From positions 1 to 43,966 of the forward strand of contig CAILJB010000078.1 in NCBI GenBank assembly GCA_903834465.1: a stretch of 43,966 nt of DNA, written 5' to 3'. Origin of the DNA: an uncultured Pseudomonadota bacterium. Its GTDB lineage: Bacteria; Pseudomonadota; Gammaproteobacteria; Methylococcales; Methylomonadaceae. The notes beneath the pieces are model-generated. The model did no database searches and was not told where the DNA came from. It saw nothing but the letters and a program-made list of their open reading frames with translations. Within the stretch, counting starts at the first letter, position 1, and each line of letters begins with the position of its first letter. This document shows positions 18 to 23,145 of this stretch, piece after piece. Made by a program: the position numbers and the translations under genes.

Positions 18-1160
18 ATGAATAAAACGATACGAAAAGCCTTTAAATTTAGGCTCAAAGTGAGTACAGAAACCAACCAGAAATTAGCAAATTATGCTGG
101 TGGGTGTCGTTTTGTTTGGAATAAAGCGTTGGCGTTGAATTTAGATAGACTAAACAAAAAACAGCCTATTTTGCGATATGACGCACTAGATTTTTGGTCA
201 AAGTTATGGAAACAGTCCGACGAGTACGGTTTTTTGAAAGACTTGCCGTCGCAGGTTTTACAGCAAAAATTGATGGATTTAGACAAGGCTTTTAAGGATG
301 CGTTTGATAAAAACCAACCATTCAAACGGATTCCTGTTTTTAAACGCAAAGGTCAATCATCGGACAGCATCCGTTATCCGCAAGGTTTCAAAATCGAACA
401 AGAAGCGAATCCGATTTTTCTGCCTAAAATCGGATGGGTACGCTATCGCAATAGCCGTAAAATTGTCGGTACGCCAAAAAATGTGACAGTTAGTCGCAAA
501 GGCAAACATTGGTATGTTTCGATTCAAGTTGAATATGAAACACCAGAAATGACGCACAAATCAACGTCTGCAATCGGTATCGACATGGGCGTTAAGCGGT
601 TTGTGACTTTGTCAGACGGAACATTCATTGAACCGTTAAATAGCTTCAAAAAATCGGCTGAAAAATTAGCCACCCTGCAACGCAAGTTAAAACACAAAAA
701 GAAATTTTCAAAAAATTGGCAAAAACAAAAAGCCAAAATTACTAAGCATCACGAAAAAATAGCGGCGGCTCGCCGTGATTTTCTTCACAAAAAATCGACT
801 GCAATCTGCGAAAACCAAGCTGTGATTTGTATAGAAGATTTGAAGATTAAAAACATGAGCAAAGCCGCGAAACTTAAAAACGTCAAACAAAAGTCAGGCT
901 TGAACAAAGCCATTCTCGACCAAGGCTGGGGGATGTTTTTTGATATGTTGGCGTACAAACAAGATTGGAACGGTGGCACGGTGATTAAAGTACCACCGCA
1001 TCACACCAGTCAAAAATGTCCAAGTTGTCATCATATCGCTAAAGAAAACAGACTGACACAAGCTGAATTTGTTTGCGTGGAATGTGGATATAAAAATAAC
1101 GCTGACGTAGTCGGCGCAATCAATGTGTTAACCCGAGGACTTTCGGGGGCTAGTCTGTGA
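18..1160 (+). CDS. tnpB: TnpB, RNA-guided endonuclease of IS200/IS605-type element
   Basis: This 380-residue protein is full length for TnpB, the RNA-guided DNA nuclease related to Cas12. It has an N-terminal helix-turn-helix domain with the typical KAFKFRL opening. The split RuvC nuclease is complete: D189 in GIDMGVKRF, E273 in ICIEDLKIKNM and D363 in NNADVVGA. Between the second and third RuvC motifs lies a zinc finger with C334, C337, C353 and C356. All three acidic catalytic residues are present, so the protein is probably active. Family knowledge says TnpB cuts at the element's own donor site using a guide transcribed from the right end, which helps retain the element. The reading frame is unbroken. 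The guide RNA should start within or just after the 3' end of the gene. Confidence 0.93.
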   Translation: MNKTIRKAFKFRLKVSTETNQKLANYAGGCRFVWNKALALNLDRLNKKQPILRYDALDFWSKLWKQSDEYGFLKDLPSQVLQQKLMDLDKAFKDAFDKNQPFKRIPVFKRKGQSSDSIRYPQGFKIEQEANPIFLPKIGWVRYRNSRKIVGTPKNVTVSRKGKHWYVSIQVEYETPEMTHKSTSAIGIDMGVKRFVTLSDGTFIEPLNSFKKSAEKLATLQRKLKHKKKFSKNWQKQKAKITKHHEKIAAARRDFLHKKSTAICENQAVICIEDLKIKNMSKAAKLKNVKQKSGLNKAILDQGWGMFFDMLAYKQDWNGGTVIKVPPHHTSQKCPSCHHIAKENRLTQAEFVCVECGYKNNADVVGAINVLTRGLSGASL

Positions 1161-1290
1161 AGTGAACGGTGCTGTAATGCCGTCAGCAGCAGAAACCAGC
1201 AGGTAGTAGTGATACACACCTGCTCCTTAGCAATAAGGAATCCCCGTTCCCTTTAGGGCGGGGAGGATGTCAAGATGTAATAGCTTTTGA
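1130..1290 (+). ncRNA. Probable omega RNA (right-end RNA) of the TnpB element
   Basis: The stretch after tnpB has no coding potential but several consecutive stems: GCAGGT/ACCTGC at 1199-1204 and 1218-1223, CTTA/TAAG at 1226-1237, and the GC-rich hairpin at 1242-1263. In this family the omega RNA overlaps the tnpB 3' end, runs through the right end and finishes with a guide of about 16-20 nt copied from the flanking DNA. The guide would then be the bases from about 1275, which is the leader of the DUF692 gene. The 5' and 3' limits are estimates. Confidence 0.55.
1242..1263 (+). repeat. Right-end imperfect-palindrome hairpin of the IS element
   Basis: CCCCG (1242-1246) pairs with CGGGG (1259-1263) and CCC (1249-1251) with GGG (1256-1258), around a TTTA loop, with an unpaired TT at 1247-1248. 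A bulged subterminal hairpin of this kind is what the TnpA transposase recognises in IS200/IS605 ends. Confidence 0.75.
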
Positions 1291-1325
1291 CAATTACTTT
1301 GATAAACAAACGCTCAGGGATTTTT

Positions 1326-2153
1326 ATGACACGCCCCTATTCTTCTCTTCATGGCGCAGGTTTAGGCTTACGTCGTCCATTTTTAAGCGAAATTTTGCAA
1401 TCGCCACAACCAGACGTTGATTTCTTTGAAGTTGCGCCCGAAAACTGGATTACGATGGGCGGAAAATTGGGCAAACAGTTTCGCGCGATGACGGAGCAAC
1501 ATAAATTTGTGTGTCATGGATTATCGCTATCGATTGGCAGTTCTGACCCGTTGGATGAAACGCTCGTTAAACAAATCAAAGCGTTTATGGCAACGCATGG
1601 CATTGAGCATTACAGCGAACATTTAAGTTATTGCTCTCATAACGGACATTTGTACGACTTAATGCCAATTCCATTTACGACCGAAGCGGTATCACACGTT
1701 GCCACGCGAATTAAACGCGTCCAAGAAATTTTAGAACGTAAAATCGCCATCGAAAACGTGTCGTATTACACCTTCGTTGGTCAAGAAATGCGCGAAATTG
1801 ACTTTTTTAACGCGGTGGTGAATGAAGCCGATTGTGACGTGTTGCTCGATGTGAATAATATTTACGTCAACAGCATCAATCATGGTTACGATGCGATTGA
1901 TTTTTTAAACGCGATGCCCGTTGAACGTATTACTTATGCTCATATTGCGGGGCATTTCAAAGAAGCTGACGATTTTTTAGTGGATACGCACGGTGCGCCA
2001 ATTATCGACCCTGTTTGGAAACTTTTGCAACATGCTTATCAACGTTTCGGCGTTTTTCCGACATTGTTGGAACGTGATTTTAATTTACCGCCGTTGAATG
2101 AATTAGTGGCGGAAGTGAAATACATTAAAAAATTGCAAACGGAGGCGTTATGA
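1326..2153 (+). CDS. DUF692 / MNIO-family iron oxidase (BufB/MbnB-like RiPP-modifying enzyme)
   Basis: The 275-residue product belongs to DUF692 (UPF0276), multinuclear non-heme iron oxidases that modify cysteines in RiPP precursors such as methanobactin and bufferins. From the start chosen here, the likely metal-binding residues are E39-N40, H64, the HYSEH segment at 95-99, E143-N144, the DVNN segment at 175-178, H206 and H210 in HIAGH, and D220/H222. A TTG upstream at 1287 is in frame, but the ATG at 1326 has a well-placed AGGGA site, and the family typically begins shortly before the GAGLGLRRPFL segment. The gene overlaps its DUF2063 partner by 4 nt (ATGA). The usual precursor gene is not between the IS end (about 1274) and this gene. 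The substrate is therefore unknown and the bufferin assignment is inference. Confidence 0.87.
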   Translation: MTRPYSSLHGAGLGLRRPFLSEILQSPQPDVDFFEVAPENWITMGGKLGKQFRAMTEQHKFVCHGLSLSIGSSDPLDETLVKQIKAFMATHGIEHYSEHLSYCSHNGHLYDLMPIPFTTEAVSHVATRIKRVQEILERKIAIENVSYYTFVGQEMREIDFFNAVVNEADCDVLLDVNNIYVNSINHGYDAIDFLNAMPVERITYAHIAGHFKEADDFLVDTHGAPIIDPVWKLLQHAYQRFGVFPTLLERDFNLPPLNELVAEVKYIKKLQTEAL

Positions 2154-2884
2154 GTTTTCAACAGCATCAAGCCGCATTTGCTGCGTATATTCGTAATCCT
2201 GAAAATAGCCCGTTGCCTGTTGGTGTAAAACCTGAACGCATGGCAATGTATCGAGAGTTATTTTTTAATAATATTGATGGATTTTTAACAGCAAATTTTC
2301 CTGTGCTGCATCGTTTATTTGACGAACAAGATTGGTCAAATTTAGTTCAAGATTTCTTTTCGCAACATATTTGTCAAACGCCGCATTTTTCTGAAATTCC
2401 CGAAGAGTTTTTAGCGTATTTGCAAAACGAACGGCAATGCACGACGGATTTCCCCTTTCTGGCAGAATTGGCACATTACGAATGGGGAGAAATGGCGTTA
2501 TCGATTGCGAATGCAGAAACGATGCAAATGTCAGCCGAAAAGATAGAATCTGTGCCATTACAACTTTCACCGTTAGCGTGTTTGTTGGTATATCAATTTC
2601 CAGTGCATCAAATTTCGCCCGCATTTTTGCCCTTAATTGCACCAGAACAGGCGACGTTTTTAGTGGCATATCGTGACACTGAAGAAGTCGTGCAATTTTT
2701 AGAAATTACGCCGTTGACGTATCAATTATTGCAATTAGTCGAAACACAACCTGAACAATTGGCAGAAACGTATTTAATGCAATTAGCGGATTTTGCGCCG
2801 GCGATTGCAGTGCAAACGTTAAAAGAAAAAGGCTTAGAAATTTTAAACGATTTTGCGCGACGTGGTGTGATTGTGGCGGTTTGA
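2150..2884 (+). CDS. DUF2063 protein (BufC/MbnC-like partner of the MNIO enzyme)
   Basis: This 244-residue protein has the DUF2063 N-terminal pattern: FQQHQAAFAAYIR, then ERMAMYRELFFNNIDGFL, then FPVLHRLF. A second conserved block, FPFLAELAHYEWGEMAL, lies near residues 100-117. DUF2063 proteins partner DUF692 enzymes and help present the precursor peptide; the old label 'putative DNA-binding' is not well supported. The 4-nt stop/start overlap suggests translational coupling with the MNIO gene. No signal peptide or membrane segment is visible. A DoxX-type membrane gene, common as the last gene of such operons, does not follow: the next gene is convergent. Family assignment is good, but the pathway product is unknown. 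Confidence 0.85.
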   Translation: MSFQQHQAAFAAYIRNPENSPLPVGVKPERMAMYRELFFNNIDGFLTANFPVLHRLFDEQDWSNLVQDFFSQHICQTPHFSEIPEEFLAYLQNERQCTTDFPFLAELAHYEWGEMALSIANAETMQMSAEKIESVPLQLSPLACLLVYQFPVHQISPAFLPLIAPEQATFLVAYRDTEEVVQFLEITPLTYQLLQLVETQPEQLAETYLMQLADFAPAIAVQTLKEKGLEILNDFARRGVIVAV

Positions 2885-2886
2885 AA

Positions 2887-2911
2887 TCTAGGCGCAAAAA
2901 TTGCGCCTAGA
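2887..2911. terminator. Perfect inverted repeat between convergent genes
   Basis: TCTAGGCGCAA and TTGCGCCTAGA form an 11-bp perfect stem with an AAA loop between the 3' ends of the DUF2063 gene and the opposing gene. Neither side is followed by a good T run, so it is only a probable bidirectional terminator. Confidence 0.5.
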
Positions 2912-2922
2912 CGTAAAACGGT

Positions 2923-3351
2923 TTACTCTTGATTTGCAGTCGCTTTGAAGCTGTTTTTAATACCGACAAACATTTCTTTCAAACCGCTAAATAAGTTTGT
3001 GATATTCAAATTTTCCTTCAACATGAAACGATTACGCAACACAGCAATGACTACAAACGCAATAATTTGTGGTGCTAATTCAAGATAAAGAGATTTTAAA
3101 ACACCAAAAAAGCCTTCAAAATCGCCTTCATTTTTGCGGTCAGCACCGTTGACAGATTCGTAAGCATCTCCACCTTCGCTACTTCTGAAGGCTTCGAGTA
3201 ATGAAATATCAAAGTAAATCAATAGAAATTGGATAACAAAAAAGGTCACTGCACTACCTGCAACCCATAAAATCATATTTTCTGTTTTTGCACGCGCTGC
3301 CGACTGATAAATCCAGATGGCAACAAAAATCATAAAAATTGCACCGATCAT
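2923..3351 (-). CDS. Unknown inner-membrane protein
   Basis: This 142-residue protein is not recognised. It starts with a hydrophobic segment (MIGAIFMIFVAIWIYQ), has a second at about residues 27-47 (ILWVAGSAVTFFVIQFLLIYF), and a third at about 91-106 (LAPQIIAFVVIAVL). Between the second and third lies an acidic, glycine-rich stretch (SSEGGDAYESVNGADRKNEGDFEG). The C-terminal part is amphipathic and basic. There are no cysteines and no catalytic motif that I recognise. It lies 22 nt after the gene for an exported protein and is probably co-transcribed with it. An envelope role is likely from topology, but no function can be given. Confidence 0.7.
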   Translation of the reverse strand: MIGAIFMIFVAIWIYQSAARAKTENMILWVAGSAVTFFVIQFLLIYFDISLLEAFRSSEGGDAYESVNGADRKNEGDFEGFFGVLKSLYLELAPQIIAFVVIAVLRNRFMLKENLNITNLFSGLKEMFVGIKNSFKATANQE

Positions 3352-3373
3352 TGTTTTATACCCTATTTAGTTA

Positions 3374-3766
3374 TTATTTTTTTGTTAAGAAGAGAAACAG
3401 ATTTGTACATTTCAAAATCATGCTGGTGCCTTCTTTTTGTGCAACCGAGCAAGATTCGTATTTTTCACGTCCGGGTGAAAGTTGTTTTTTAATGACACCC
3501 TCTTCCACAGTGTATTTAACTGAAACGGTCATCTCTTTGGTACGTCCTAATGAGTCAGTTGAAACAGACTGCAATGTCCCGTCATTCTTGAATTCCCATG
3601 AACTTACAATGGTTTTTTTCTCGCCATCGATTTTGAGTGCTTCAGCATTTACAGACCACTTACCTAGAATTTCGCTGTTATCTTTTAACGCGACATCCGC
3701 GTGCGCTGACCACGCAAAAAATACAGCAATCAACGGTAAGTATTTAACGTCATTTGTTATTCTCAT
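3374..3766 (-). CDS. Exported protein of unknown function, lipocalin-like pattern
   Basis: The 130-residue product has a likely Sec signal peptide (YLPLIAVFFAWSAHA, cleavage near residue 23). The mature part opens with EILGKWSV and then WEFKNDGTLQ. This 'GKW ... F..DGT' arrangement is typical of small beta-barrel lipocalin-like domains that bind hydrophobic ligands. Two cysteines in the last third (SCSVAQ and LKCTNL) could form a periplasmic disulfide. It is the first gene of a probable two-gene unit with the membrane protein downstream. An ORF on the opposite strand over the same bases lacks these protein-like features. Family placement is weak and the ligand is unknown. Confidence 0.68.
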   Translation of the reverse strand: MRITNDVKYLPLIAVFFAWSAHADVALKDNSEILGKWSVNAEALKIDGEKKTIVSSWEFKNDGTLQSVSTDSLGRTKEMTVSVKYTVEEGVIKKQLSPGREKYESCSVAQKEGTSMILKCTNLFLFLTKK

Positions 3767-3885
3767 TTTTAACCACCCCTGTTGATATTTAAAATATGCA
3801 AATGTAGCGGTTTTAATTATATCACCATTGAATATGCGGCTTTAATTTTTAGCGCGTTAGTGCAAGTTGAAGTGAGCGAGAAGCC

Positions 3886-3913
3886 TTGACTTTCACGGAT
3901 TCTACAGTATTAT
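3886..3913 (+). promoter_or_regulatory. Strong sigma-70-type promoter for the 43-residue peptide gene
   Basis: TTGACT (3886-3891) and TATTAT (3908-3913) are separated by 16 bases, about 60 bases upstream of the small gene at 3976. This is among the best -35/-10 pairs I found in the window. Confidence 0.65.
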
Positions 3914-3975
3914 GACCACTCCGTTTATGCTAGTTTTAGCGTATTTTTAAAACAAAAAAATTATAGGAGAATGCA

Positions 3976-4107
3976 ATGGGTGCAATTTTAGACGTTACCG
4001 AAATGTTGAAAACACCAGTAGGTGCGACAATTGGTTTAGCAGTAGTAGCAGCAGGTTACTTCTTCGTGAAATGGGTTTTTGCTCCACACCCAGAAGACGA
4101 CAAATAA
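3976..4107 (+). CDS. Small single-span membrane peptide, 43 residues, unknown
   Basis: This short gene encodes 43 residues beginning MGAILDVTEMLKTP. An alanine/glycine/valine-rich membrane span follows (about residues 15-36, ending FFVKWVF), then a short charged tail, APHPEDDK. A good ribosome site (TAGGAGA) lies 9-10 bases upstream of the ATG. It has its own promoter at 3886-3913 and a strong terminator at 4130-4166, so it appears monocistronic and probably highly expressed. I do not recognise the family. Its shape resembles small accessory subunits of membrane complexes, but nothing in the sequence proves that. The next gene, an HTTM protein, starts 100 bases later beyond the terminator. 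Confidence 0.78.
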   Translation: MGAILDVTEMLKTPVGATIGLAVVAAGYFFVKWVFAPHPEDDK

Positions 4108-4129
4108 GCAATAGACTTCCGTCTTTAGC

Positions 4130-4166
4130 AAAAAGGTCGCAACAGGTTATGTTGCGACCTTTTTTT
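4130..4166 (+). terminator. Rho-independent terminator
   Basis: GGTCGCAACA (4135-4144) pairs perfectly with TGTTGCGACC (4150-4159) around a five-base loop. The stem is extended by an A run and followed by seven or more T, so it is a textbook terminator on the plus strand. Confidence 0.92.
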
Positions 4167-4207
4167 ATGGCTAAATTTTTTAATATTTCAACGGGTTAAA
4201 GGTTGCC

Positions 4208-6103
4208 ATGTACGCCTATCTTTCCACTAAAATTACCACACTACTCAATAAACAAGTTCCCGCGACAGGATTAGGTTTATTTCGTTTGTTTTATGGCTTA
4301 ATCACACTGCAAGAAATCTTTTTTTTACTGTATTTTAATCACCTCATTTTTGACCCAATTCCTTATTTGGATGTTGAATTTCCCATGATTCCTGCATTTT
4401 TGGGATTTTGGGCAATTGTGGCGACGGGCGTGGCACTCGGTTATCGTTATCAAACGGCTATGTTGTGCAATTATCTGTTTTGGATAGTGTTTGTCAATTT
4501 CACACCGATGCAGCGCGATTTCGATGGTGGTTTTGATACATTTATGATTGGGGTGGGATTTTTCTTATTATTTCTGCCCGCAGACAAAGCCTTTTCGCTT
4601 GATAATTTACGCTACAAACTTAGCACGCCATTTAAACATTACAGTGAATACACGAAACCAACGGTTTCCGTACTTGCCTATTATTTGCCGGTAGCGATTT
4701 GTTTAGGTTTTTTGTATTTTGATTCTGCTGTTCACAAAATGTTTGCAGAGCATTGGCGCAATGGTTTAGGAACATGGTTGCCAGCCACGCAGCCTTATTA
4801 TGTTTCAGCGTTAGATATGTCGCCGTTGCTCAACCAAAAATGGATGCAAAATTTACTGGGTTACACCATTTTGGTTTTCCAATTCACATTTGTGTTTTTC
4901 TTTTGGCAACGTTACGCGCGAATTGCATATTTGTTCGTCGGTATGGGATTGCATTTAGGCATTACGTTGTCGTTCAATATTTACCCATTTGGTTTAGGAA
5001 TGTTGAGTTTTTATTTACTGATGATTCCGTTTAGTTGGTGGCGAGCAATTGGTAATGTCTTCATTTCAAAACAGCCAACATTAACGGTGTTTTTTGACCA
5101 GCAATGTCCATTGTGTAATCGCACTGTTTTGATTTTGAATCACTTTGATATTTTGCGCCGAATCGATTTTAAAAACGCGCAAGAATATGTAGCACATTAT
5201 CCGGCGGTTGCGGTTATTAAACAGGAACTTTTGTTAAAAGATTTGTATGCGACGGATAGTCACGGTCGAATTTATTCGGGTGTTCAAACTTATGCACAAA
5301 TTTTTAAACATACCGGTTATTTAGCGTTTATCGGTGTGCTGCTGTCTTTACCGCTGATTCATGGACTAGCAGTTAGAAAATACCGTGAAATTGCGGATAA
5401 TCGCGCTCGTGTGAGTTGCAATGAAACGTGCTTTGTTGCGACACCACTGGAAAATAACACTTGGTATGCACGTTTATTTGAACAAGCTGCGACGCAAAAA
5501 CCAAAAGCATTCGCGCGAAAATTTATCAAAATTCTAACGTTGTTTCTGTTGTTGCAATTGAATAGCACGATTCATTACGGATTGATTTACCGTTTAAATC
5601 TGCACAATCCATTGCTTTCGCCGTTAGCACAAGTCAGTAATACGCTTGTTTTGTTGTCAACTACATTTGTTGGCATCGTGCCGCACGCGCTGTATTTGCA
5701 CGACCATTTTTCTGGTTACGATCACATTTTGGCGATTACTTACACCGATGAGCGCGGACAAGAGCAATGGTTGCCATTTGTAAACGAGCAAGGGCGGTTG
5801 CTCGCGCTAAATTGGGGACGCGTGCATTCAATGTGGGCAAATATTGCCGTTACGCCTAATATCAACAATCAACGCTTGCAAAAGTTCATCATGAAAGTGA
5901 CCGCATTTTACGGACGAAATTTAGGGCTTGATTTGAATAAAACGGTCTTTCATATTCAAATGAAAAAAACTCGCGCACCTAATGAGTGGGTGGATGATTT
6001 GTTGCATCAAAATATGGCGGGAAGTTGGGCAATCATTGGTGCGGCACGCTGGCACGATAAGGCAATTCAAATTGAGTTGCCCGAAGACATCAATAACCTG
6101 TAA
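4208..6103 (+). CDS. HTTM (vitamin K gamma-carboxylase-like) membrane protein with DCC1-like thiol-oxidoreductase domain
   Basis: The 631-residue protein joins two known modules. Residues 1-285 form an HTTM domain with several membrane spans and the family segment around residues 173-192 (SAVHKMFAEHWRNGLG). Residues 291-400 match DUF393 (DCC1-like), with the redox motif C300-P-L-C303 after TVFFDQ. Further hydrophobic segments near 355-375, 440-455 and 475-500 are followed by a soluble C-terminal region. HTTM domains are related to vitamin K-dependent carboxylase/epoxidase, and DUF393 proteins are thioredoxin-like. A quinone-linked redox function in the membrane is plausible but unproven. AAAGG upstream of the ATG supports the start. 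No operon partner: it lies between two terminated small genes. Confidence 0.82.
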   Translation: MYAYLSTKITTLLNKQVPATGLGLFRLFYGLITLQEIFFLLYFNHLIFDPIPYLDVEFPMIPAFLGFWAIVATGVALGYRYQTAMLCNYLFWIVFVNFTPMQRDFDGGFDTFMIGVGFFLLFLPADKAFSLDNLRYKLSTPFKHYSEYTKPTVSVLAYYLPVAICLGFLYFDSAVHKMFAEHWRNGLGTWLPATQPYYVSALDMSPLLNQKWMQNLLGYTILVFQFTFVFFFWQRYARIAYLFVGMGLHLGITLSFNIYPFGLGMLSFYLLMIPFSWWRAIGNVFISKQPTLTVFFDQQCPLCNRTVLILNHFDILRRIDFKNAQEYVAHYPAVAVIKQELLLKDLYATDSHGRIYSGVQTYAQIFKHTGYLAFIGVLLSLPLIHGLAVRKYREIADNRARVSCNETCFVATPLENNTWYARLFEQAATQKPKAFARKFIKILTLFLLLQLNSTIHYGLIYRLNLHNPLLSPLAQVSNTLVLLSTTFVGIVPHALYLHDHFSGYDHILAITYTDERGQEQWLPFVNEQGRLLALNWGRVHSMWANIAVTPNINNQRLQKFIMKVTAFYGRNLGLDLNKTVFHIQMKKTRAPNEWVDDLLHQNMAGSWAIIGAARWHDKAIQIELPEDINNL

Positions 6104-6133
6104 TTTGGACGTGATTTTTCGATTTTTTTATTA

Positions 6134-6162
6134 TTGCATTGGCTGAATAGTCATGATATAAA
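6134..6162 (+). promoter_or_regulatory. Sigma-70-type promoter for the small lipoprotein gene
   Basis: TTGCAT (6134-6139) and TATAAA (6157-6162) are 17 bases apart, about 60 bases upstream of the lipoprotein start at 6223. Confidence 0.5.
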
Positions 6163-6222
6163 TTGCCCGTGCTTAGAAATTAGCGCAACAATAATTAAAA
6201 AACAACTTGGAGGATTTCAAAA

Positions 6223-6321
6223 ATGAAAAAAGTAATGTCTGTATTAGCTTTAGCGTTAATGATTGTTGGTTTGACAGGTTGCATCGACGACCAAGACGGT
6301 ACAAAACAAAAAGTTTCTAGC
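6223..6321 (+). CDS. Small lipoprotein, 32 residues (entericidin-size), unknown
   Basis: The gene encodes 32 residues: a signal peptide MKKVMSVLALALMIVG followed by the lipobox LTGC (cysteine 20), then a tiny polar tail beginning IDDQDG. After processing only 13 residues would remain, anchored by lipid. A strong ribosome site (TTGGAGG) lies about 10 bases upstream. It has its own promoter and terminator. The size and layout recall entericidin-like lipoproteins, but there is no clear sequence match that I can state. Only one frame carries both the lipobox and the ribosome site. Confidence 0.72.
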
Positions 6322-6371
6322 TCAGTTTCTTTATAAGACTGACTTAAATTTTTAGCTGTTAGAGCTTTCAG

Positions 6372-6399
6372 AAAACCCAGCATTTTTGCTGGGTTTTTT
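6372..6399. terminator. Bidirectional rho-independent terminator
   Basis: AAAACCCAGCA (6372-6382) pairs with TGCTGGGTTTT (6387-6397) around a TTTT loop, followed by T residues. Because the stem starts with AAAA it also ends with TTTT on the minus strand, so it can stop both the lipoprotein transcript and the opposing fhc transcript. Confidence 0.85.
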
Positions 6400-6423
6400 G
6401 GTTTTAGGGGATTGAGTTTTTAT

Positions 6424-6448
6424 GGCGCATCAATGGAATTGACGCGCC
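6424..6448 (-). repeat. Inverted repeat just after fhcA
   Basis: GGCGCATCAA (6424-6433) and TTGACGCGCC (6439-6448) pair with one mismatch on the plus strand, which becomes a G-U pair in minus-strand RNA. This suggests a hairpin in the fhcA 3' untranslated region, possibly a first terminator or a stabilising stem. Confidence 0.45.
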
Positions 6449-21066: not shown

Positions 21067-23145
21067 TTAAGATTTAATGCCGCTGTGGCGCAATAACGCT
21101 TCACAAGACGGTTCGCGTCCACGGAAGTTTTTGAATAATTCCATCGCTTCGTCACTACCACCCTGCTCTAAAATACTAGTTAAAAACGCCCTACCCGTTT
21201 CAGCATCGAAAATTCCTTTTTCTTCAAATAACGAAAACGCATCGCTCGATAACACTTCCGCCCATTTGTAACTGTAATAGCCCGCTGCATAACCACCAGC
21301 GAAAATGTGCGAAAAACTGTGTGCAAAACGGTTAAATTCAGGTGCTGGCAAGACCGCTACTTTTGAACGAATAGTAGTCAAAATTTCATAAATACACCCT
21401 CCCCTTTGCGGTTCGAAATCGCGGTGAATATGAAAATCAAACAAACTAAATTCCAATTGACGCACCATCATCATGCCGGCTTGAAAGTTTTTTGCGGCAA
21501 GCATTTTTTCAAATAACGTATCGGGCAACGGTTCGCCTGTTTGATAATGTGCCGAAATAAGCGCGAGCGCGTCTTTTTCCCAGCACCAATTTTCCATAAA
21601 CTGACTTGGCAATTCAACGGCATCCCACGCCACGCCGTTAATCCCAGAAACGCCTAAATAATTGACTTGCGTTAAAACGTGATGCAACCCGTGTCCGAAT
21701 TCATGAAACAATGTGGTTACGTCATCATGCGTCAACAGTGATGGTGTATCAGCCGTTGGCGGTGTAAAATTACACACTAAATATGCGACGGGATATTGAA
21801 CATTATTGCCTTCTAATTTACGTCGTCCGATGCAATCATCCATCCACGCGCCGCCCCGTTTTTTCTCACGCGCATACAAATCTAAATAAAACCGCCCACG
21901 TTTTTGCCCTGCACTGTCGTGAATTTCAAACAGTTGTACGTTTTCATGCCAACGGTCAAAATCATGCAGTTCCGTAATTTGCAAACCATATAAACGTTCC
22001 ACAATGGCAAATAAACCTTTTAACACATGCGGCACAGGGAAATAACTTTTTACTTCTTCTTGGGACAATTGATAATGTTGCTGGCGCATTTTTTCTGATA
22101 AATAACTGACATCCCATGCTTGTAAGTTTTCGATGCCATAGTTTTCAAGAGCAAACTTTTGTAAATCCGCTAAATCTTGTCGTGCTTGGGGCAATGATTT
22201 TTGGGCTAAATCTTCAAGAAAATCGATAACTTCATCGGGAGAATTTGCCATTTTTGTGACAAGTGATAATTCCGCATAATTGGCAAAATTGAGCAATTGT
22301 GCTTCTTCATGGCGCAATGCTAAAATTTGTTCCATGATTTCAGTGTTATCAAAATCGCTTTCACTGGCTCGCGTAACAAAGGCGGTGTAATGCTCACGGC
22401 GCAATTCTCGATTATCCGCATACGTCATTACGGCAAGATATGACGGAAATTGCAACGTGATTAACCAACCCGTTTCGTAGGAATGTTTCACATGAAACAT
22501 CTCGTCGTTATTTTCAGAATGTTTCATGTGAAACATTTGTGCGCTTTGTTTAGCTTGGGCTAAAGCTGTTTCGGGTAAGCCGACTAATTCAGTCACATCG
22601 GTAATTAGTTTTGTCCACGCATTGGTCGAATCTAAAACATGTTCTTCGTAGCGACTAGTTAATGAACTGAGTTGTTGAGAAATTTCTTTGTAACGCTGTT
22701 TTTGTTCAATGGGCAATGCTACGCCTGATAATTGAAAATCACGCAACGCATTGGTAATCACTTTTTGTTGTGCTTTAGTCAAATTTGCAAATGTTTCATG
22801 TGAAACAATTGACTCGTAAGCGTGGAACAAGGTTTCGTTTTGTCCCATTTCGGTGGCGTAATCACTTAACTTTGGTAAACACGCATTGTAGGCATCGCGT
22901 AACGCATCATTATTCATCACCGCGTTTAAATGACTCACCGGCGACCATGCTTTATTTAAACGGTCTTCAGCCGCTTCAATGGGTTCGATTAAGTTTTCCC
23001 AAGTATAAATTTCATTCACGCTTAAACACTCATCAACTATTTTTCGAGCATCAGCTAACAATTCATCGATAGCTGGTTCAACGTGTTCGGGTTTAATTTG
23101 GCTAAAATGCGGTAAATCGATTTGGTTTAATAATGGATTAGTCAT
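21067..23145 (-). CDS. prlC: Oligopeptidase A (M3 family zinc metallopeptidase), carrying parS-like sites
   Basis: The 692-residue product matches PrlC/OpdA, the cytosolic M3 metallopeptidase that degrades short peptides and cleaved signal peptides. The zinc site is HEFGH (in TTLFHEFGHGLHH) with the downstream acidic ligand helix. Compared with my recollection of the E. coli protein, residues about 203-222 (MFHMKHSENNDEMFHVKHS) look like an extra loop. That loop is exactly where two parS-like 16-mers lie in the DNA, and a third overlaps codons 113-118 in a different frame. The gene overlaps the downstream-coded glutaredoxin-like gene's end by 8 nt at its start. Enzyme identity is secure; the insertion should be confirmed by alignment. 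Confidence 0.95.
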   Translation of the reverse strand: MTNPLLNQIDLPHFSQIKPEHVEPAIDELLADARKIVDECLSVNEIYTWENLIEPIEAAEDRLNKAWSPVSHLNAVMNNDALRDAYNACLPKLSDYATEMGQNETLFHAYESIVSHETFANLTKAQQKVITNALRDFQLSGVALPIEQKQRYKEISQQLSSLTSRYEEHVLDSTNAWTKLITDVTELVGLPETALAQAKQSAQMFHMKHSENNDEMFHVKHSYETGWLITLQFPSYLAVMTYADNRELRREHYTAFVTRASESDFDNTEIMEQILALRHEEAQLLNFANYAELSLVTKMANSPDEVIDFLEDLAQKSLPQARQDLADLQKFALENYGIENLQAWDVSYLSEKMRQQHYQLSQEEVKSYFPVPHVLKGLFAIVERLYGLQITELHDFDRWHENVQLFEIHDSAGQKRGRFYLDLYAREKKRGGAWMDDCIGRRKLEGNNVQYPVAYLVCNFTPPTADTPSLLTHDDVTTLFHEFGHGLHHVLTQVNYLGVSGINGVAWDAVELPSQFMENWCWEKDALALISAHYQTGEPLPDTLFEKMLAAKNFQAGMMMVRQLEFSLFDFHIHRDFEPQRGGCIYEILTTIRSKVAVLPAPEFNRFAHSFSHIFAGGYAAGYYSYKWAEVLSSDAFSLFEEKGIFDAETGRAFLTSILEQGGSDEAMELFKNFRGREPSCEALLRHSGIKS
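22484..22499. promoter_or_regulatory. parS-like centromere site 1
   Basis: TGTTTCACATGAAACA differs by one central base from the widespread parS consensus TGTTTCACGTGAAACA. It lies in prlC, where it encodes part of MFHVKH on the minus strand. Confidence 0.75.
22520..22535. promoter_or_regulatory. parS-like centromere site 2
   Basis: TGTTTCATGTGAAACA is the exact reverse complement of site 1 and starts 36 bases after it. It encodes MFHMKH on the prlC strand. Confidence 0.75.
22792..22807. promoter_or_regulatory. parS-like centromere site 3
   Basis: A third TGTTTCATGTGAAACA lies 272 bases from site 2, again inside prlC but in a different codon phase (it encodes VSHET). Conservation of the DNA word across frames supports selection on DNA rather than protein. 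Confidence 0.75.

Follow-up and report, generated by a model that had tools for sequence, protein, structure and literature searches.

Three copies of a 16-bp word that lie inside the prlC coding sequence are, with high probability, working chromosomal parS sites, and would together form an origin-proximal loading zone for the organism's own ParB. In the established ParABS mechanism, ParB clamps load at parS and slide, and ParA moves the origin region. The stretch of DNA analyzed here (the window, 43,966 nucleotides) is the entire contig C78 of an assembly (G000) of 2,821,114 bases in 135 contigs, which is 97% complete; its formylmethanofuran dehydrogenase genes and the names of its relatives (Methylococcaceae, Methylomonas) are the basis for kinship to methane oxidisers. 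Several features by which a chromosomal parS is recognized are found together, in that ParA and ParB are encoded in the same genome, the sites are close to oriC, and sites and ParB are kept together in relatives.

Three parS-like words within one gene

An exact word scan finds TGTTTCAYRTGAAACA at 22484, 22520 and 22792 of the window, all within prlC (Table 1), which is where a sequence-only reading of this DNA had placed them. Site 1 is the exact reverse complement of sites 2 and 3. Each of the three matches TGTTTCACGTGAAACA at 15 of 16 positions, as expected from the earlier statement that they are one central base away from the ParB/Spo0J consensus, and each is a 16-bp inverted repeat with half-sites of the GTTTCAC type. 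None has an intact CACGTG core, the center being CA or TG in all three. The peptides given for the sites in that reading, including VSHET in another frame for the third copy, are those obtained by translation.

Table 1. Features of the window, with the PrlC residues that the sites cover.
Feature	Position	Strand	PrlC residues	Details
tnpB	18..1160	+		at the window's left end, reading inward
prlC, oligopeptidase A (M3 metallopeptidase), host of the three sites	21067..23145	-		NCBIfam oligopeptidase A, 964 bits
Genus-specific in-frame insertion in PrlC, with sites 1 and 2	22474..22536	-	about 204-224	alignment
parS-like site 1	22484..22499	.	216-221 (MFHVKH)	TGTTTCACATGAAACA, CA center
parS-like site 2	22520..22535	.	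204-209 (MFHMKH)	TGTTTCATGTGAAACA, TG center; 36 bp from site 1
parS-like site 3	22792..22807	.	113-118 (IVSHET), other frame	TGTTTCATGTGAAACA, TG center; 272 bp from site 2

No further copy had been noticed in the window, and a scan at up to 3 mismatches agrees, since all its other matches carry 3. The genome scan that had been proposed as a check gives three exact words in the whole assembly, all in the window's prlC, which rules out an even scatter of the word across the genome. Inexact matches to TGTTTCAYRTGAAACA amount to one place with 1 mismatch and ten with 2 mismatches; searching with the reversed pattern as a control finds 5 places at up to 2 mismatches and no exact match. The CG-centered TGTTTCACGTGAAACA has no exact copy in a scan of the whole assembly. 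The single 1-mismatch place, in pheT (L004, G000:C48:3526), is CA-centered with an intact core and one outer mismatch. It has no counterpart among the matches listed at up to 1 mismatch in other genomes of the genus, and we therefore exclude it from the conserved sites.

A first-order Markov model with the window's composition puts the expected number of exact words at 0.00028 for the window and 0.018 for 2.82 Mb. When the codons of prlC were shuffled synonymously (n = 20,000), three words were present in 32 shuffles, and 118 carried one at the position of site 3; this is a strong test for site 3 only, because the MFHxKH peptide leaves few synonymous choices. Three exact words against 0.018 expected, together with the shuffles, rule out a chance origin.

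An in-frame insertion and a rewritten segment in PrlC

Sites 1 and 2 lie in a stretch that is missing from the PrlC of the other genera aligned, while site 3 lies in a segment common to them. The insertion has a net length of about 14 residues relative to most other genera aligned (692 versus about 678 aa), and the window's PrlC is 20 residues longer than those of G063 and G109 (672 aa). In an AlphaFold2 model of PrlC (33 sequences; mean pLDDT 90.7), a predicted helix extends up to residue 212, and residues 213-223, inside the insertion, are the sole run of at least three residues with pLDDT under 50. The alignment to a solved oligopeptidase A (4ka8) is gapped at the same position. PrlC would tolerate the insertion as a probably flexible loop.

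Among the 11 species with site 3, no codon variation is seen at residues 113, 114, 115 and 117, while the amino acid at 116 (H, C or R) follows the center of the DNA word; for comparison, 73 of 349 residue-invariant degenerate codons of prlC are also codon-invariant. This bears out the earlier view that the DNA word, and not the peptide, is conserved. Judged from the aligned codons, site 3 is made by substitutions in existing coding sequence. Species without parAB lack the insertion, with prlC still open. Across the family, the origin is not the regular place of prlC, which in the 5.0-Mb genome of G060 stands 2.39 Mb away from dnaA.

ParA, ParB and Smc

The genome's own parA and parB are both open and lie on contig C8 in the order gidB-parA-parB-atpI-atpB. 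ParB scores over the cut-offs of the Pfam families ParB_N, HTH_ParB and ParB_C and of NCBIfam parB_part; its best NCBIfam score is for the Noc model (225.7 bits), below that model's cut-off of 315. ParA is named from its gene position and from AAA_31/CbiA, its match to the NCBIfam ParA model being under the cut-off. Seven of the eight parS-contacting residues named for Caulobacter ParB are retained (G170, K171, S172, R173, N178, G201 and R204), and the eighth, Q162, is H here and likewise in the aligned relatives. The R at 173 and the G at 201 place this ParB with parS-type rather than Noc-type specificity, so that its DNA-binding residues, whose inspection had been suggested, do not point to a clearly different target. 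The motifs GERRWRA and ENIQRE, which we take to be CTP-binding, are present. No change in the helix-turn-helix of ParB was seen to track the CA/TG centers.

Smc (TIGR02168, E ≤ 1e-20) is found in three of the 18 genomes of the genus (G119, G122 and G126). It was not found in G000, in spite of ParAB, by the same model with 19 candidate places scored per genome and assemblies that are incomplete; a parS that loads Smc would call for an Smc encoded in the genome. This is a possible case of ParABS without Smc, and because of this distribution ParB may here serve ParA-driven movement of the origin rather than the loading of Smc.

Distribution of sites and parAB within the genus

The genus of the window (g1) is represented by 18 genomes, including G000. 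At up to 1 mismatch, TGTTYCAYRTGRAACA is matched in 14 of them, and is not found genome-wide in G063, G081, G109 and G121 (the last 72% complete). A recount within prlC used 17 sequences, G121 being left out since only its residues 581-691 are present. Alignment of relatives' prlC had been proposed as a check, and the sites recur at the same gene: core words occur within prlC in 14 of the 17, with three sites in eight genomes (G000, G125, G013, G126, G128, G122, G119 and G130), two in six (G127, G096, G123, G129, G124 and G040), and none in G063, G081 and G109, where they are gone or decayed. The layout of 272 bp followed by 36 bp is common to the eight; G127, G096 and G123 are without one of the three sites; and in G129, G124 and G040, the most distant members, there are two sites, spaced 45 bp apart, with the third lacking. 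The centers of the 36 prlC sites are CG (16), CA (12), TG (8) and TA (0). If the two center bases were independent, zero TA would have a probability of 0.024, relatedness being ignored. CA or TG centers occur in nine of the 14 site-bearing genomes.

With the genome's own ParB as query, orthologs are found in 14 of the 18 genomes and are not found in G063, G081, G109 and G119. ParA orthologs (86% identity or more) are found in 13, being absent from those four and from G128, in which parB begins 94 bases from a contig end. In G063 and G081, atpI directly follows gidB, and parAB is gone from its usual place. In G109, gidB and atpI are on two contigs; about the first 50 codons of parA remain beside gidB, and atpI is preceded by a frame resembling a transposase (Pfam HTH_Tnp_1, narrowly below the cut-off). 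G063 and G109 retain a relic of the ParB C-terminus before atpI (0 of 1000 shuffles score as high); the corresponding candidate in G081 is not significant (220 of 1000).

The sites follow parAB closely. All 13 ParB-positive members with a readable prlC have two or three core sites in it, and the three genomes in which parAB is gone from its place (G063, G081 and G109) have none. G119 has three intact sites and neither parA nor parB was found in it; an assembly gap is likely, since its near-twin G122 has both. The association has a Fisher p of 0.0018 without G119 and 0.0059 with G119 counted against it, relatedness being ignored in both cases.

In a PrlC tree with the site columns removed, the window's species groups with G063/G109, and G081 falls outside (support 96/93 and 98/95). 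A tree of RpoN-LptB-LptA-LptC-KdsD (14 genomes, five of them, including G081, by RpoN only) places G081 with G125, and a single clade for G063, G081 and G109 is rejected (AU p 0.013). The trees disagree on details, and both split G063/G109 from G081, which implies two changes: either two losses, or a loss and a regain. The sites and parAB thus appear to have been lost in parallel, in about two events. We also examined horizontal re-acquisition, because the window's insertion is most like that of G126 (the best match for prlC codons 161-240) and the ParB of this species finds its closest relative in G128. The DNA identities are star-like (parA: G122 87.9, G125 87.4; parB: G128 81.5, G125 81.1) and reveal no clear transfer, so that a recent horizontal gain of parAB together with the prlC insertion in the window's species is improbable, though a loss followed by a regain may have occurred. 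The predicted ParB loading zone gains support from the encoded ParAB, the retained contact residues, and the absence of sites where parAB is lost.

Linkage to the replication origin

On its own contig (C59), dnaA is preceded by an inward-reading IS200/IS605 tnpA at the contig end, then an unnamed frame, mnmE and yidC. The window's tnpB and this tnpA look like one divergent element of the IS200/IS605 type split between the two contigs. By the C78-C59 join, site 1 would be about 22.5 + 5.2 = 27.6 kb from the start of dnaA. The first gene block of the window has its hvfB end no more than 35 bp from mnmE in G063 and G125. In G096, hvfB does not adjoin mnmE, and the hvf block is near 196-201 kb of C42; in that genome, contig C73 breaks off shortly past dnaA, and C42, with dnaN at its start, carries prlC at about 78 kb. 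The origin-proximal position that had been predicted for this locus is consistent with both distances. The window's genome and G063 differ by an inversion about dnaA (window 1299-6425 versus G063:C10:52674-73772), and in the window the hvfBC-sdpB-like block is joined to fwdA. The RiPP maturation genes hvfB and hvfC (an MNIO enzyme and its partner; window 1287-2884) are located in this putative origin region.

Other genera carry the word at recF-gyrB

Exact TGTTTCAYRTGAAACA words occur in 21 of the 121 genomes of the family, and 100 are without one, the scan outside g1 covering the exact word only. Among the matches listed, the 19 genomes of other genera have 33 exact places, all CG-centered, and two g1 genomes have five, all with CA/TG centers (Fisher p 2e-6, relatedness ignored); among exact words in the 121 genomes, CA/TG centers are found only in g1. 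For these exact words of other genera, the usual location is the 3' end of recF and the recF-gyrB gap, with words there at 14 of the 17 loci L019-L035 and also in G086 (15 genomes). The words of these putative parS pairs are spaced 35-41 bp apart, as compared with 36 bp for sites 1 and 2, and in 14 of 14 cases the copy in recF encodes [MV]FHV[KE][QH] near the C-terminus (the RecF frame coming from a family search in 11 of the 14 genomes and assigned by eye in G111, G113 and G093). At L025, L027 and L028, the words are in other frames. Eleven genomes have the pair and dnaA on a single contig: in nine of them, 3.6-4.1 kb separates the pair from the start of dnaA, against 24 kb in G100 and, on the assumption of a circular molecule, about 295 kb in G086.

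The same family search finds RecF over the cut-off in 19 of the 20 genomes of other genera searched and in none of the 18 genomes of g1. In G096 (C42:1-3715), gyrB directly follows dnaN, and recF is missing. Loss of recF, which was not found in g1, may have altered the usual place of parS in that genus, an order of events that is conjectural. No spacer shared between the recF-gyrB pair and the prlC insertion was seen by eye. G077 (genus g9; 96% complete) has a pair 36 bp apart just upstream of gyrB (L299, about 6060-6112), and orthologs of RecF, ParA and ParB were not found in it. In L305 (G020:C33), exact parS words occur at 1201 and 6192, one within a long frame resembling SbcC, the other (MFHVKHKK) close to the N-terminus of a helicase-like frame, both frames being named by eye.

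Alternative explanations

It might be argued that the repeat is selected as a peptide, with MFHxKH loops serving PrlC (for example, in metal or partner binding) and the match to parS a by-product. Sites 1 and 2 do share a reading frame and a similar peptide, the same frame recurs at the recF ends of other genera, and the peptide permits few synonymous codon choices. On the other hand, the identical word at site 3 is read in a different frame as a different peptide, residue 116 changes among H, C and R with the DNA word kept, the part of the structural model with the lowest confidence falls in the insertion, and prlC remains open in species that have lost parAB and are without the insertion. 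We consider selection for the peptide very improbable. Equally improbable is that the word serves as an operator for some DNA-binding protein that is not ParB. The word is near-palindromic, as an operator might be, and its link to ParB is drawn from sequence; against this, it is buried deep in coding sequence, matches the word at recF-gyrB of other genera, is exact only in prlC genome-wide, and is missing along with parAB in two lineages by two trees.

A different concern is that the sites are remnants of parS, unused by ParB in this organism since the center changed from CG to CA/TG. The assembly has no exact CG-centered word left, and, according to PMC4368675, an intact CACGTG core is held important for binding in Pseudomonas aeruginosa, with changed cores bound more weakly. 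Because all three of the window's sites depart from CACGTG at the center, each may be weak. The P. aeruginosa site parS5 (TGTTCTACATGGAACA) is nevertheless reported as bound, as the weakest of ten, in PMC4368675; since parS5 also departs from the CACGTG core, we do not take CA/TG centers as excluding parS. Every other position is intact at the three sites, the CA/TG change recurs in nine of the 14 site-bearing genomes and TA in none of the 36 sites, parA and parB are open, and the sites are gone or decayed in species without ParB; decayed and unused sites would be a most unlikely source of this pattern.

A possible centromere inside a protein

With the three words read as working parS, each 16-bp word would be bound by ParB dimers, which would then shut into clamps and travel along the neighboring DNA, and the origin region so coated would be moved by ParA. 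Sites 1 and 2 would be carried by the short in-frame insertion in PrlC, and site 3 would have been built by point substitutions. The prlC zone, about 28 kb from dnaA, may replace the recF-gyrB pair of other genera, and weaker binding may be offset by there being three CA/TG sites. A fuller history, to which we give about an even chance, is that after the loss of recF and its parS pair the genus rebuilt its centromere inside a protein: a parS insertion entered a flexible loop of oligopeptidase A in frame, a third site evolved in neighboring codons, the centers relaxed to CA/TG, mostly without Smc across the genus, and the insertion was cut out in frame when ParABS was lost. The protein appears to have been lengthened to hold a centromere and shortened where the segregation genes were lost, in effect a test of what parS does, performed by evolution alone. 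With close relatives that differ in center (CG, CA or TG), in having Smc and in having ParABS, the need for a palindromic core, the need for Smc and the place of the centromere become directly testable.

Relation to known systems

Sites of the parS type in genes are usually viewed as words fitted into existing codons, and their distribution was reportedly surveyed by Livny and colleagues in 2007. Nine of the ten P. aeruginosa sites parS1-10 are predicted within coding sequences in PMC4368675, and PMC7022226 calls parS3 and parS4 intergenic; parS is also treated in PMC7383237. Location inside genes is therefore already known, and what is new is an in-frame insertion that carries parS. Papers describing parS carried by a lineage-specific in-frame insertion, or parS in Methylococcales, were not found, nor any by title on parS and prlC, in a literature search that was thin in subscription papers.

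The P. aeruginosa sites and those of the window are alike in the 16-bp word, in their origin-proximal clustering and in their location in coding sequences. They differ in that the strong P. aeruginosa sites (TGTTCCACGTGGAACA) have the CACGTG core, as given in PMC4368675, whereas the window's sites have CA/TG centers and include a pair in a genus-specific in-frame insertion. Any one of the four strong origin-proximal sites suffices in P. aeruginosa, according to that paper. The recF-gyrB pairs resemble sites 1 and 2 in spacing and in the frame of the recF copy, but have a CG center in all copies listed, and in the window's genus the pair is in prlC and no RecF is over the cut-off. The Bacillus subtilis Spo0J consensus (TGTTNCACGTGAAACA, from PMC7022226) has the same arms as the window's words but a CG center, and B. 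subtilis, the control in our search, has Smc, in contrast to the genome of the window, in which it was not found.
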